Below are positions 43,550 through 49,637 of a DNA stretch of 64,000 nt, one piece after another (positions within the stretch are counted from its first letter, which is position 1; every line of letters starts with the position of its first letter). Origin of the DNA: Candidatus Poribacteria bacterium (GTDB taxonomy: Bacteria > Poribacteria > WGA-4E > PCPOR2b). The stretch spans positions 75,657-139,656 of the forward strand of contig JAJDUM010000063.1 in assembly GCA_022826645.1 (NCBI GenBank), given 5' to 3'. Made by a program: the position numbers and the translations under genes. The notes under the pieces are model-generated. The model made no database searches and was not told where the DNA came from. It was given only the letters and a program-made list of their open reading frames with translations.

Positions 43550-43578
43550 TTGACAGGTGCCATCGAAATTGCTATCCT
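43550..43578 (+). promoter_or_regulatory. Sigma-70-type promoter of the UGSC selenoprotein gene
   Basis: A perfect TTGACA (43550-43555), 17-bp spacer and TATCCT (43573-43578), 38 bp before the ATG. This is a strong vegetative promoter for the UGSC gene and possibly the sulfatase and HAD genes that follow. Confidence 0.7.
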
Positions 43579-43615
43579 ATCTACATACATTTCTTAAATC
43601 CATCGGAGGTTTACA

Positions 43616-44149
43616 ATGGCAAACACAACTTTACTCGATCCAATCGCTCCAAACAACCCATCGGAGAAATATCTTGCTCCGCGCCTCGATGACCTCAACG
43701 GCAAAGTGATGGGCTTACTGAACATCAGTAAAAACGGCAGCGATATCTTCCTCGACCGTGTCGAAGAACTGATGCGTGAGCATTTTGACCTTGTCGACGT
43801 TGTGCGTGTAACAAAACCAACCTTTGCGCGTCCCGCACCGCAAGACCTAATCACAGAACTCGCCGATCGGTGCGACTTCGTGGTGGAAGGGCTTGCAGAC
43901 TGAGGTTCCTGTATATCGTGCAGTGTGCACGACGGAACCGCTTTAGAAGAACGTGGCATCCCCAGCGTATCGATCTGCTCCGATGTATTCTTCGCTGCCG
44001 GGGAAGTTCAAGCGAAATCGCTCGGTTATCGCGATTTCCATCCAACCACCGTTGACCACCCAATCCAAAGCCTTACACCTGATCAGATCCGCGATCGTGC
44101 GGAGGGTATCGTTGAAAAGATTGCCGCTGCATTGACAAAGGTTTCATAG
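43616..44149 (+). CDS. UGSC-family selenoprotein (in-frame UGA = selenocysteine 96)
   Basis: Reading from ATG 43616 (behind CGGAGG), the frame gives LAPRLDDLNGKVMGLLNISK and KPTFARPAPQDLITELADRC, ending FVVEGLAD. It then meets TGA at 43901-43903, and continues in the same frame as GSCISCSVHDGTALEERGIP to TAG at 44149. The UGSC family is named for exactly this U-G-S-C motif followed by CSVHDG, so the UGA is selenocysteine 96 of 177 residues. A bacterial-type SECIS hairpin follows immediately. The protein is probably a redox enzyme with Sec and a nearby Cys. An automated caller would split it into two short ORFs. It sits upstream of a sulfatase-family gene. The sel genes must lie elsewhere. Confidence 0.93.
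43901..43939 (+). promoter_or_regulatory. Bacterial SECIS element just after the UGA codon
   Basis: After TGA, GGTTCC (43904-43909) pairs with GGAACC (43934-43939). An internal bulge separates it from an upper stem, TCGTGC (43916-43921) / GCACGA (43927-43932), which closes the loop AGTGT. Apical G and U residues, a base-paired upper stem and a position directly after the UGA are the features SelB needs in bacterial SECIS hairpins. Confidence 0.85.
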
Positions 44150-44305: not shown

Positions 44306-45937
44306 ATGAACGTCATCTTTATCATGAACGATACCTTTCGCAGGGACCACTTGGGATGCTACGGCAACACTTGGATTCAGACCCCCAATCTGGATGGGTT
44401 TGCCCAACACGCAGCCCTTTTTGAACAATTCTATGCAGCTTCCTATCCGACGGTGCCTAACCGGTGGGACCTGGCGACCGGGCGTTTCGGCTTCCCTTCT
44501 CGCGGGTGGCAGCCCTTGAGTCCGGGGGATGTGACTTGGGGGCAGCTCCTGTCTGCGAACGGCGTGCATACCCAAATGATCTGGGATACTCCAATGCTTG
44601 CGATGCACGATTATAACTACACACGCGGCTTTGGTGGGCTCAGTTTTGTGCATAGCCAGAAGGGCGATCCATGGATAACTGATCCCTCTCTGGACATTCA
44701 GCTGGGGGCACAACCCCATAAAATCCGCAATATCTCAGGTCTACAAAACTACCTCCGCAACCACGCCGCCCGTCAATTCGATCGTGAATTCTGCATTGGA
44801 CGGGGGATGTCGGAAGCGATGGATTGGCTGGAGACCAACCACAACCAAGAGTCGTTTTTCCTCTATGTCGATATGTGGGATCCCCATGAACCGTTCGACT
44901 GCCCTTGGTACGACTATGCGCTATATGCCGATCCCGATTACGATGGCGATCAGATGTTGTACCCGGAATACGGTCGTCCAACATATATGTCCGAGGCGGA
45001 GGCGGCGCATCTCCGGGCACTCTATGCTGGCAATGTCACACTGACGGATCGGTGGGTGGGCGCATTTCTGGATATGGCAGAACGGTTGGGGCTCTTCAAG
45101 AATACGCTCATCATCTGGGCGTCCGACCACGGGCACCTGTTCGGAGACCATGACCTACAAGGCAAGCCGGGAGCCGAACTCGGTAAGCTCTACGAAATCA
45201 CCGTCCGGATACCTCTCTTGATTCATCACCCCGATGGGTTGGGAGGGGGTGAACGGGTTCACGGCGTTGTCCAACCCCCTGATATCTTGCCCTCAATCTT
45301 AGAATTCCTTGGAATCTCAACACCGTCACACATCCAAGGCACCTCATTCCTACCGTTGATGAGTGGAGACACAGCAAAGATACACGATTACGCCTTCTCA
45401 AGTCGATTCCCGCCCAGCGCAGGGACGACCGGCTACACGCCGGTAGAGGGTGCCACTTTCGACGGTTGGGTCGGCTCTGACCGGAACGTTGAACCCAGCA
45501 CCATCACAGACGATGAGTGGGCTTACCTGTGTGCACCGCAGGGGATGCCTTCCGAACTCTACAATCTGAAAACCGATCCCGATCAGCAACATAACATTGT
45601 GGATTCCTATCCTGATGTGGCTGAACGGATGCGTAATGCGTGGATCGAGTTTCTGGAAAATCACGATGCCTCCGAAACGCGCATCCGTCCGTTCCAAGAT
45701 GCGGATGTCGAGGTGCACACGCCAGCGAGCGGCACAGTCTACGCATTCCGAGACGATCACGGTCAATGGATCGCTTACCCCACCGAGGGGCAGGCGCGAC
45801 GTTCTGCGTATCACAACGATGCACCGGGTCCGAAGCGGGAGATTCAAAAGATAACTTTTGGCGATCTGCTAACCGACAATCCGAAAAACCTGATTCACTT
45901 GTATGGACAGTATTATTGGGCGCAGGACCTTGCCTAA
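44306..45937 (+). CDS. Sulfatase-family hydrolase with Thr at the formylglycine position
   Basis: A 543-residue alkaline-phosphatase-superfamily protein. The N-terminal FIMNDTFRRDHLGCYGN carries the metal-binding aspartates. SYPTVPNRWDLATGRF aligns with the sulfatase C/S-x-P-x-R...TG motif but has T where Cys or Ser is converted to formylglycine. IIWASDHGHLFGDHDLQGKPG holds the later D-H ligands. The start is ATG 44306, just before the first strand; the frame is open to 44162. It may be a phosphonate or phosphate-ester hydrolase or transferase rather than a true sulfatase, since formylglycine cannot form. It is downstream of the selenoprotein and followed by a HAD hydrolase. Confidence 0.85.
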   Translation: MNVIFIMNDTFRRDHLGCYGNTWIQTPNLDGFAQHAALFEQFYAASYPTVPNRWDLATGRFGFPSRGWQPLSPGDVTWGQLLSANGVHTQMIWDTPMLAMHDYNYTRGFGGLSFVHSQKGDPWITDPSLDIQLGAQPHKIRNISGLQNYLRNHAARQFDREFCIGRGMSEAMDWLETNHNQESFFLYVDMWDPHEPFDCPWYDYALYADPDYDGDQMLYPEYGRPTYMSEAEAAHLRALYAGNVTLTDRWVGAFLDMAERLGLFKNTLIIWASDHGHLFGDHDLQGKPGAELGKLYEITVRIPLLIHHPDGLGGGERVHGVVQPPDILPSILEFLGISTPSHIQGTSFLPLMSGDTAKIHDYAFSSRFPPSAGTTGYTPVEGATFDGWVGSDRNVEPSTITDDEWAYLCAPQGMPSELYNLKTDPDQQHNIVDSYPDVAERMRNAWIEFLENHDASETRIRPFQDADVEVHTPASGTVYAFRDDHGQWIAYPTEGQARRSAYHNDAPGPKREIQKITFGDLLTDNPKNLIHLYGQYYWAQDLA

Positions 45938-45976: not shown

Positions 45977-46813
45977 GTGGCAAAATCGCACACCTTAGAG
46001 AATACATCAATTGAGATTATCCACGAAATTGAGCGGGGAAACGTTCAGCACGCTCTGTTTGATTTTGACGGGACGATTTCGCTAGTCCGCGACGGTTGGC
46101 AGAGCGTGATGGTGCCCATGATGGTTGACATCCTTCTCAACGAAACGGGGACGGATGAAACGCCGGAGCAGCTGGAAGGGGTTGTTGTTGAATTTGTGGA
46201 TAATCTGACAGGCAAGCAGACCATCTACCAAATGATGCAGCTCTGCGAAGAGATTGAGAAGCGGGGTGGCGTCCCGAAGCAACCGTTGGATTACAAAGAT
46301 CTGTATAACAGCCTGCTCCTGCCAACCGTGGATGAGCGTATCGCCAAGCTGGAGAGTGGAGAGATTGAAGCCGCGGATCTGCGTGTTCCGATGTCCCTTG
46401 AGTTCCTACAGTCCTTGCAAAAGCGTGGTGTGAAACGCTATCTCGCGAGTGGGACCGACGTTGAATTTGTTCGCCATGAAGCAGGCCTCCTCGGTGCTGC
46501 GTCCTACTTCGATGGGGGTATCTTCGGAGCACTGCGGGAGTATCAGAGTTTCTCGAAGGCGATGGTAATTCAGCAAATTCTCGATGATTTCAACCTGACC
46601 GGGAGTGAGCTTCTGGTGGTCGGGGACGGTTCGGTAGAGATCGAAAATGCGAAGGCGGTCGGCGCAATCGCTGTGGGCGTAAATTCAGCGGAGAATAACC
46701 GCTACCAGATGAACGCGGACAAACGGGGCAGGCTGCTACATGCTGGCGCAGATATTCTGATTCCCGACTTTCGGGATGGGAATCGGCTATTGACCTATCT
46801 TTTTGACAGCTAA
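45977..46813 (+). CDS. HAD-superfamily hydrolase
   Basis: A 278-residue phosphohydrolase. Motif I is LFDFDGTISL (nucleophile D and acid D), motif II is RYLASGTDVEF (S/T), the K is in FSKAMVIQ, and motif IV is LLVVGDGSVEIE (D). A large helical cap domain lies between motifs I and II (about residues 35-150), which suggests a C1-type sugar-phosphate phosphatase. The GTG start at 45977 has AAGGAA. It lies 39 bp after the sulfatase-family gene on the same strand. Confidence 0.88.
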   Translation: MAKSHTLENTSIEIIHEIERGNVQHALFDFDGTISLVRDGWQSVMVPMMVDILLNETGTDETPEQLEGVVVEFVDNLTGKQTIYQMMQLCEEIEKRGGVPKQPLDYKDLYNSLLLPTVDERIAKLESGEIEAADLRVPMSLEFLQSLQKRGVKRYLASGTDVEFVRHEAGLLGAASYFDGGIFGALREYQSFSKAMVIQQILDDFNLTGSELLVVGDGSVEIENAKAVGAIAVGVNSAENNRYQMNADKRGRLLHAGADILIPDFRDGNRLLTYLFDS

Positions 46814-47549
46814 CCAGCAACCCTAAGCAATCGGGGCTTTAGCTTGGGATATTCAACTGCGTAGATCCTACTTATTTGGGAAGTGTGCATAATGTTTCGC
46901 GGTGGAATATGTTAGTGATTTTGTTTGTCGCTCATGTAAAGAATTAGTGCAACAGCACTGACTTGCCTTAAAAATCGTAGGCGGGGCATCCCCGGTCACG
47001 CTTGGTCTCGGCACGAACGAATCCTCTCAGACTTGCCCCGCAATATTTTGTTGGGAATCGGAATTCTCTCCTACTGCGTAAGTGCTATATTAATAAACCG
47101 AGTTGCTAGGGCGTGTTGACATTTTGATGTTGCTAATTGGGCAAACGCTGTAATCATCGGCTAATCTGACACATGTAGCGCAAACTGTTATTTTGCAGGC
47201 AGGGATCATCCCGATTCAATCGGGATGGTACAAAAGACCACTTTTACGAAAATGCTTTTTGAAAAGGGGACTTCCTGATGAAAAACTTTGTTGGATTTCA
47301 CTCTATCTGTCTATAAGCAGGTGTTGTTGACCGACCAAACCTCTATTGCACTTGATAAGGATTCTCGTTTAACCGTTCAGCCCAACCTACGGACTGGTAA
47401 ATGTCAACAGAACCTAATTTACTTGAGAACTCCCAGTAGGAATTTGTGTCTATGTTATAATTATAATTGTAAGGGGGTTGCCCCCCAATCTGACCACTAT
47501 CAAATCCAGAGGATAGACAACCGATTTGAAAACAGAGGAGGAACGTCAA
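46814..47549. other. Intergenic region with repeats
   Basis: No gene of coding character is seen in these 736 bp. It contains the third copy of the dispersed hairpin repeat (46933-46996), a 9-bp inverted pair around 46981 and 47033 (GCGGGGCA...TTGCCCCGC), a stable hairpin ATCCCGATTCAATCGGGAT near 47208-47226, and a CCCAACCTACG motif at 47381-47391. Confidence 0.6.
46933..46996. repeat. Dispersed hairpin repeat, copy 3
   Basis: The arm CATGTAAAGAATTAGTGCAA, then CAGC, resembles copies 1 and 2. It carries a ~20-bp insertion before AAATCGTAGGC and the stem CGGGG (46982-46986) / CCCCG (46990-46994). Confidence 0.45.
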
Positions 47550-48542
47550 ATGCACCGGAGATACAATCTGACACATTTCCTTTTAGCTAGCATTGTAGTC
47601 TTGAGTCTGACGCCGCTGATGGTAGTCGTTGAAGGACAAGCACGGATTGCCTTTGAATCTGATAGGGATGGTCACATTAAAAACAACTTTTTCGCTTCTG
47701 TAATCTACGTTATGGACACCGATGGGGGGAATCAGCGAAACCTCACTAATAATCCTGGCGATGATAGGGACCCCTCATGGTCTCCTGACGGCAAACGCAT
47801 TGCCTTTAGCTCTAATAGGAATGATAGGGGTGAGAAAAGGGACATCTACGTGATGGACGCCGACGGGGGCAATCAGCGAAACCTCTCTAACAATGACTTT
47901 GATGACTGGTCTCCCTCATGGTCTCCTGACGGCAAACGGATTGCATTCGTGTCTGGAAGACAGGGGACTAGTGAAATCTACGTGATAGATGCCGATGGAG
48001 GCAATCTGTTAAACCTCACCAATCATGATCGTTCTGACGAGGATCCCTCATGGTCACCCGACGGTAAACGCATTGTCTTTGTTGCTATTAGGGGTGGAAA
48101 CATGGACATCTACGTGATGGACGCCAATGGGGGCAATCAGCGAAACCTCACCAATAATGACCGTTTTGACGAGGATCCCTCATGGTCCCCTGACGGTAAG
48201 TACATTGCTTTTACTTCCTTTAGGAACGGGTTGGGGGGAAACCGGGATATCTATGTAATGGACGCCGATGGGGGGAATCCTCGAAACCTCACCAATCACC
48301 CCGATAGGGACTATTCACCCTCATGGTCGCTCGACAGTAAACGCATTGCCTTTGTGTCGAATAGGACGAGGGATTTTAATCCGGACATCTATGTAATGGA
48401 CGCCGATGGGGGGAATCCTCGAAACCTCACCAATCATCCCGATGATGACACTGCTCCTGCATGGTTGAACTCACCTTTTTCGGTTTCTCCCTCCGGCAAA
48501 AAGTTTACAATGTGGGGACGGCTCAAGCAGGTCAACCGATAA
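47550..48542 (+). CDS. Secreted TolB-like β-propeller protein (tandem copy 1)
   Basis: A 330-residue protein from ATG 47550 (GAGGAGG). A signal peptide is present (hydrophobic core about residues 8-24, cut after VVVEGQA). Then come seven or so PD40/WD40-like TolB repeats of the pattern IYVMDADGGNQRNLTNN, then PSWSPDGKRIAF. The final ~25 residues, FSVSPSGKKFTMWGRLK, are shared with the next gene and resemble a short C-terminal tag. The propeller is probably periplasmic or exported; no enzymatic residues are seen. It is a tandem paralogue of 48600-49637. Confidence 0.88.
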   Translation: MHRRYNLTHFLLASIVVLSLTPLMVVVEGQARIAFESDRDGHIKNNFFASVIYVMDTDGGNQRNLTNNPGDDRDPSWSPDGKRIAFSSNRNDRGEKRDIYVMDADGGNQRNLSNNDFDDWSPSWSPDGKRIAFVSGRQGTSEIYVIDADGGNLLNLTNHDRSDEDPSWSPDGKRIVFVAIRGGNMDIYVMDANGGNQRNLTNNDRFDEDPSWSPDGKYIAFTSFRNGLGGNRDIYVMDADGGNPRNLTNHPDRDYSPSWSLDSKRIAFVSNRTRDFNPDIYVMDADGGNPRNLTNHPDDDTAPAWLNSPFSVSPSGKKFTMWGRLKQVNR

Positions 48543-48599
48543 CTGCCATTATTCGGAGAATGATAAAAAAACGATTTGAGACCAGAGGAGGAATAGCAG

Positions 48600-49637
48600 A
48601 TGCAACGAAGGGACAATTTCACACATTTGATTTTAGCTAACTTTGTAGCCTTGGTGCTGACATCGCTGATGGTATGCGTTGATGCACAAGCACAGATTGC
48701 CTTCGTGTCTCACAGGGATGGGAACCCTGAAATCTACGTGATGGACGCCGATGGGGGTAATCCTCGAAACCTCACCAATAATCGCGATAAGGACTATTCA
48801 CCCTCATGGTCCCCTGACAGCAAGCGCATTGTCTTCATGTCTAATAGGGATGGGCACCTTCGAGACGATATACCCGGTATATCCACTTATGAAATCTACG
48901 TGATGGATGCCGATGGGGGTAATCCTCAAAACCTCACTAACGATCCCCGTAATGACAGGAATCCCTCATGGTCCCCTGACGGCAAACGGATTGCCTTCGT
49001 GTCTAATAGGGATGGCTTTAAAAACGACGAGCTTGTAATCACTAATGAAATCTACGTGATGGACGCTGATGGGGGAAATCTTCAAAATCTCACTAACAAT
49101 CTCAATAATGACTCTTCACCCTCATGGTCTCCGGACGGTAAACGCATCGTCTTCTCGTCTGCGAGGGATGGTCACCTTAGAAACGAATTTGTTGGAATCA
49201 CTGATGAAATCTACGTGATGGACGCCGATGGGGAGAATGAACAAAGACTCACTGAAAATCCCAAGAATGACTGGGATCCTATATGGTCCCCTGACGGTAA
49301 ACGGATTGCCTTTTCGTCTGATAGGAAGGGTGACTTGGCAAACTATGAAATCTACGTGATGGACGCCGATGGGGAGAATGAACAAAGACTCACTGAAAAT
49401 CGCGTTGATGACAAGTCTCCCTCATGGTCACCCGACGGTAAACGCATTGTCTTTTACTCTAATATGGAAGGGAACTATGAAATCTACGTGATGGAAGCCG
49501 ATGGAGGGAACCTGCAGAATCTCACCAATAATCCCAATCATGACGTTAGTCCTGCATGGTTTAACTCTCCCTTTTCGGTTTCTCCCTCCGGCAAAAAATT
49601 CACGATATGGGGGTGGGTCAAACAGCTTGACCGATAA
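48600..49637 (+). CDS. Secreted TolB-like β-propeller protein (tandem copy 2)
   Basis: A 345-residue protein with the same plan: a signal peptide (LILANFVALVLTSLMVCVDA), seven PD40-type repeats (IYVMDADGGNPRNLTN, then PSWSPDSKRIVF), and the C-terminal tag FSVSPSGKKFTIWGWVKQLD. The ATG at 48600 has GAGGAGG within a leader almost identical to the first copy's, so the duplication included the 5' region. Some repeats contain longer insertions (about residues 88-98 and 138-148). The role is unknown. Confidence 0.88.
   Translation: MQRRDNFTHLILANFVALVLTSLMVCVDAQAQIAFVSHRDGNPEIYVMDADGGNPRNLTNNRDKDYSPSWSPDSKRIVFMSNRDGHLRDDIPGISTYEIYVMDADGGNPQNLTNDPRNDRNPSWSPDGKRIAFVSNRDGFKNDELVITNEIYVMDADGGNLQNLTNNLNNDSSPSWSPDGKRIVFSSARDGHLRNEFVGITDEIYVMDADGENEQRLTENPKNDWDPIWSPDGKRIAFSSDRKGDLANYEIYVMDADGENEQRLTENRVDDKSPSWSPDGKRIVFYSNMEGNYEIYVMEADGGNLQNLTNNPNHDVSPAWFNSPFSVSPSGKKFTIWGWVKQLDR

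Follow-up and report, generated by a model that had tools for sequence, protein, structure and literature searches.

A UGSC family gene with an in-frame UGA in a poribacterial genome, its predicted selenocysteine and a candidate partner protein

The UGSC family of selenoproteins was already known by 2008. It ranks among the selenoprotein families met most often in aquatic surveys (PMC2398784), and two further papers list it as a selenoprotein (PMC9312934, PMC13188914). In a 2026 review it still figures as one of the families whose function is largely uncharacterised, and the same review describes GrdB with a UxxCxxC motif (PMC13188914). SelA and SelB have been noted earlier in sponge symbionts (PMC5649159); a link between Poribacteria and UGSC was not found in the literature searched. 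The gene described here lies in a window of 64,000 nucleotides, by which we mean the whole stretch of DNA that was analysed, taken from a 6.04 Mb Candidatus Poribacteria genome in 127 contigs. The nearest relatives of its locus are found in Candidatus Poribacteria assemblies, at up to 96% identity. The gene product shares with the UGSC family (PF24696/NF041046) a whole-length match, the UGSC motif, a coding-region SECIS and a host with Sec machinery, and nothing essential differs, apart from the position of a partner gene that lies away from UGSC in most Poribacteria. As far as the literature searched shows, what is new is the systematic pairing of UGSC with this partner and a profile link to PrdB/GrdB. 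Taken jointly, we give the selenoprotein identity of the gene and the assignment of its partner a probability of about 0.85.

The reading frame opens at an ATG (43616), runs for 95 codons to the TGA at 43901-43903, and continues in the same frame for another 81 codons to a TAG; the two codon counts are those of the preliminary description of this DNA. The peptide read through the UGA is ...EGLAD-U-GSCISCSVHDG..., in which the UxxCxxC motif is formed by U96-G-S-C99-I-S-C102, and U96-G-S-C99 supplies the Sec or Cys that the family carries in [U/C]GSC. Membership of the UGSC family, also claimed earlier, holds along the whole protein at both curated cut-offs: the read-through product matches the Pfam UGSC model (PF24696) at 1.9e-50 and 171.8 bits (cut-off 25) over profile positions 2-171 of 172, and the NCBIfam model UGSC_fam (NF041046) at 161.5 bits (cut-off 125). 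When the two halves are aligned as one protein, they match consecutive parts of the single Pfam model, positions 2-92 before the UGA and 94-171 after it (of 172). Expression signals precede the gene (Table 1). They had been called near-perfect; the GGAGG ribosome-binding site is indeed present, whereas the promoter is good rather than near-perfect.

Table 1. Coordinates of the UGSC gene, its signals and its downstream neighbours, as positions in the window
Feature	Position	Strand	Remarks
Sigma-70-like promoter, TTGACA-17-TATCCT, TG before second hexamer	43550..43578	+	10/12 matches; consensus match only
GGAGG ribosome-binding site	43605..43609	+	Six bases upstream of ATG
UGSC family selenoprotein gene (predicted)	43616..44149	+	177 residues with Sec96; TAG stop 44147-44149
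In-frame TGA, predicted Sec96 of UxxCxxC	43901..43903	+	TGA in 87/87 aligned poribacterial loci, which include overlapping fetches of one gene (codon table: 59 distinct genes); no Cys codon, no other stop
Lower stem 43904-43909/43934-43939 around hairpin	43904..43939	+	Not conserved outside the window's lineage
Candidate bacterial SECIS apical hairpin, 7-bp stem, loop GUG 43923-43925	43916..43932	+	19 nt after UGA
Sulfatase-family gene	44306..45937	+	Genus-restricted neighbour; judged outside the system
HAD hydrolase gene	45977..46813	+	Genus-restricted close neighbour; judged outside the system

We suggest that the UGA is read as selenocysteine, a reading that is strongly supported by sequence comparison and secure as a prediction. 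A profile search placed UGSC above cut-off in 60 of 85 poribacterial genomes, and the TGA is kept in all homologous poribacterial loci down to 46% identity, as well as in a fusion that is 27% identical; these homologues continue past the TGA rather than ending at it. Were the UGA a true stop, the gene would be a truncated pseudogene or the result of a sequencing error, and the standard code and most gene callers do end it there. However, the TGA persists in 59 distinct genes, and the half downstream of it is intact under both amino-acid and codon constraint, which leaves that reading with a negligible probability. No more credible is a genome-wide reassignment of UGA to another amino acid. It would fit a frame that is open once the TGA is read, but of the window's 34 ORFs with 250 residues or more, 14 end at TGA, on which count we rejected it; the host, moreover, has a complete Sec machinery, and most UGSC relatives from other phyla carry Cys at the Sec site. 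The codon that precedes the UGA (43898-43900) is GAC in 59/59 genes, GAT being synonymous, and selection may therefore also act on the bases 5' of the UGA.

Published rules for bacterial SECIS elements specify a loop of 3-9 nt with G in the first two loop positions, a stem of 4-16 bp, a distance of 16-37 nt from the UGA and an MFE of -7.5 kcal/mol or lower (PMC13188914). The region after the UGA folds into a hairpin that conforms to all of these, with a GUG loop, 7 bp (UCGUGCA 43916-43922 with UGCACGA 43926-43932), a distance of 19 nt and about -17 kcal/mol. Since 6 of 200 shuffles fold equally well (MFE -17.1 kcal/mol, z = -2.0), folding energy by itself is weak evidence for a SECIS. Conservation, by contrast, is strong evidence: across 44 distinct RNAs, base pairing holds in 307 of 308 upper-stem cells, and among the 59 distinct genes the stem codons at +5, +6, +7 and +9 after the UGA are TCG (59/59), TGC (58/59), AGT (59/59) and CAC (59/59). 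These codons are frozen although serine alone has six, and most other synonymous positions hold about 1-2 bits; locus L020 carries a double synonymous change that turns a C-G pair of the stem into U-A. The element had been described as having two stems. Its upper stem and loop are borne out, but the lower stem is unconserved, being paired in just 169 of 264 cells (64%) in relatives, and is therefore mainly a feature of the window's lineage. An Rfam search of the SECIS region returned no family above chance.

The host genome was searched family by family for the selenocysteine machinery. It holds selA (599 bits, cut-off 268), selB (369 bits, cut-off 242) and tRNA-Sec in that order (C2:3388-6861), the last scoring 76.6 bits (selC, cut-off 47) with anticodon TCA by ARAGORN, together with selD (367 bits, cut-off 125). 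With selA, selB and selC side by side and selD in the same genome, the earlier claim that this organism decodes UGA as selenocysteine is supported. Host selD (G000:C13:2928-3848, L104) is a selenoprotein gene too, with an in-frame TGA in TCG-U-AAK. A second selenoprotein candidate, PrdB/GrdB-like, lies at G000:C42:13892-14326 (L127); its in-frame TGA stands before P[LM]CNQS and is conserved in relatives (L125, L128-L130, L134, L136), and the standard code ends the protein at FLTPV. A GRDB-like match with an in-frame TAG (L131, G031:C179:19326-19820), in a genome that has neither UGSC nor the partner, is possibly a decaying copy. A gene caller that treats UGA as a stop only will thus split the UGSC gene and at least two more selenoprotein genes of this host, selD and the prdB-like gene.

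The partner is an unclassified protein of about 315-360 residues. As encoded with plasmid-borne UGSC it has about 330-370 residues and the motifs ...TDGLPVVPPT...NAVMAGC...VNGPI...ANATIGRA..., and no Pfam or NCBIfam model matches it. In all 16 plasmid records with UGSC, some of which are close relatives of one another, it is encoded within about 300 bases of UGSC or fused to it; these plasmid-borne UGSC homologues come from haloarchaea, Actinomycetota and Pseudomonadota and are Cys forms where inspected. Most poribacterial genomes encode the partner away from UGSC, including that of the window (C124:19618-20535, about 314 residues), while the two genes are adjacent in two genomes (G023, G025) and fused in a third (G005). 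Among 83 poribacterial genomes, 60 have both, 20 neither, one UGSC only and two the partner only, an agreement in 80 of 83 (Fisher 6e-16, in a test that ignores relatedness). Of the genomes from the same order that have neither, most retain selA, and the absences are scattered on the SelA tree; therefore, the pair was probably gained or lost jointly several times. Because a paired test on well-supported branches gave 5 concordant, 0 discordant and 1 neutral comparison (sign test p = 0.06), we grade the link as strong but not proven: the working partner of UGSC appears to be this protein of about 315-360 residues, and not the sulfatase or the HAD hydrolase. Viral contigs yielded no confirmed relative of the partner, a PDB search with its profile gave nothing useful, and a comparison of the UGSC and partner profiles showed no kinship. 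In Halorientalis and Halalkalicoccus (L109, L111), one UGSC gene is flanked by two different partner genes, which suggests that the partner is heteromeric. The 2008 ocean survey reported UGSC fused to a conserved domain called 'Unknown_1' (PMC2398784), which is probably the partner found here.

Several comparisons bear on the fold and kinship of the UGSC protein. Its AlphaFold model (pLDDT 74, pTM 0.76) has five strands alternating with helices and places Sec96 directly behind the third strand; its matches in the PDB are short and mostly to flavodoxin-like proteins, with TM-scores of only about 0.4. Searched by sequence against the PDB, the UGSC protein gave only weak and unconvincing matches, and the host's prdB-like protein gave nothing useful. 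Profile-profile comparison, in contrast to shallow alignments (P 0.09), aligned UGSC with PrdB-type proteins at P = 7.8e-6 and a score of 45 by hhalign when deeper alignments were used, with Sec aligned to the Sec/Cys site; the PrdB-type profile included the host's UGA-containing prdB-like gene (C42:13892). One hundred column shuffles scored 12.6 +/- 2.0 (maximum 17.7), and control profiles (reversed GRDB, partner, SelA, TrxB, CoA-transferase) scored 12-23. The comparison ties UGSC to the selenocysteine segment of PrdB (D-proline reductase) and GrdB (glycine reductase selenoprotein B), with which it shares a strand-UxxC-helix-strand arrangement and, in some genomes, a link to thioredoxin reductase. 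The UxxCxxC of GrdB corresponds to U96-xx-C99-xx-C102. Unlike PrdB and GrdB, however, UGSC has a different partner protein, and aligns with them over just 66 columns; for the window protein, a direct match to Pfam GRDB (PF07355) is lacking even with the threshold relaxed to E <= 10. PrdA, GrdE, GrdA and GrdC were not seen beside UGSC.

Two other accounts of what UGSC does have to be set against this kinship and partner. The preliminary description took the sulfatase-like and HAD hydrolase genes of the window as a clue to function, and they do lie on the same strand as UGSC and are conserved with it in five genomes of the genus. Yet the sulfatase adjoins UGSC in only 5 of the 60 poribacterial loci compared, all of the window's genus, and is missing from the rest; the HAD gene is downstream of UGSC in those five and one relative, 4-6 kb upstream in three others, and not close in nearly all. 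Nor do the plasmid UGSC loci examined have an annotated sulfatase. The neighbourhood comparison therefore largely refutes the two as partners, and we hold their working with UGSC to be very improbable. The other account makes UGSC a selenoprotein of thioredoxin-like fold for general thiol-disulfide or peroxide handling, and not a substrate-specific reductase subunit. It has more to recommend it, in that such a fold was suggested in the 2008 ocean survey (PMC2398784), the protein has a UxxC motif, and trxB or trxA lies nearby in some loci. The matches of the model are mostly flavodoxin-like, although at TM-scores of only about 0.4; the older idea of a thioredoxin-like fold may thus still hold but gains no support from structure prediction. 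A specific substrate is suggested by the constancy of the partner and by the catabolic genes nearby (for CoA-transferases and TRAP/TTT transporters). We regard a general thiol-redox role as unlikely, although clearly less so than a role with the sulfatase and the HAD hydrolase.

Other genes near UGSC in Poribacteria can be described briefly. In about 48 of the 60 poribacterial loci (e.g. L069), the gene immediately upstream of UGSC encodes a TPR protein of 110 residues; it has the same orientation as UGSC, ends shortly before it and may share a transcript with it. The window's locus has no such gene. At 47526-49637 the window has two adjoining genes of repeated TolB-like units (YVMDADGGN..NLTNN..SPSWSPDGKRI).

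The Cys-form UGSC loci sit among genes for CoA-transferases, CoA-ester lyases and TRAP/TTT transporters, and therefore the substrate of UGSC is probably a small carboxylic acid. As for the source of electrons, Arthrobacter has both trxB and trxA near UGSC, Roseovarius and Variovorax SRS16 have trxB there, and V. boronicumulans has a TrxB-like gene; haloarchaeal UGSC loci have no trxB annotated next to UGSC, and in the window genome trxB is on a different contig from UGSC. In fusions of UGSC and partner from Sporomusa termitida (L194:7323-9047) and Vibrio europaeus (L195:6374-8059), DMGTS replaces [U/C]GSC, and genes for aconitase X and DUF126 adjoin. Since these fusions lack the motif thiols, redox activity cannot be common to the whole UGSC family, and they hint at a branch that is not redox-active and serves a different substrate.

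For the UGSC of the window, the ribosome is predicted to read UGA 43901-43903 as selenocysteine by means of the coding-region SECIS and the host's SelA, SelB, SelC and SelD. We propose that the UxxCxxC loop, which closes a beta-strand, would serve as the redox centre of a reductase made of two parts and akin to the selenocysteine segment of PrdB/GrdB, in which the partner would hold the substrate, a small organic acid. Sec96 would be the catalytic nucleophile that attacks or reduces the substrate, forming a selenenylsulfide with Cys99 or Cys102, and thioredoxin and thioredoxin reductase would supply the electrons that restore it. The most likely role we can name for UGSC is thus to provide the selenol in a reductase of two parts that is fed by thioredoxin and acts on small organic acids, even if we put reductase chemistry for UGSC and its partner at somewhat below even odds.

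At this locus, the immediate neighbours of UGSC in the window mislead about its function. More tentatively again, UGSC and its partner may belong to the proline/glycine-reductase superfamily as a branch not described before. Such an enzyme would be a selenol or thiol reductase of a small organic acid, built of two parts and coupled to thioredoxin, and would occur in bacteria and haloarchaea as well as in sponge-associated Poribacteria. A constant partner that no model describes and the kinship measured with PrdB/GrdB turn the function of UGSC into a defined two-protein assay.
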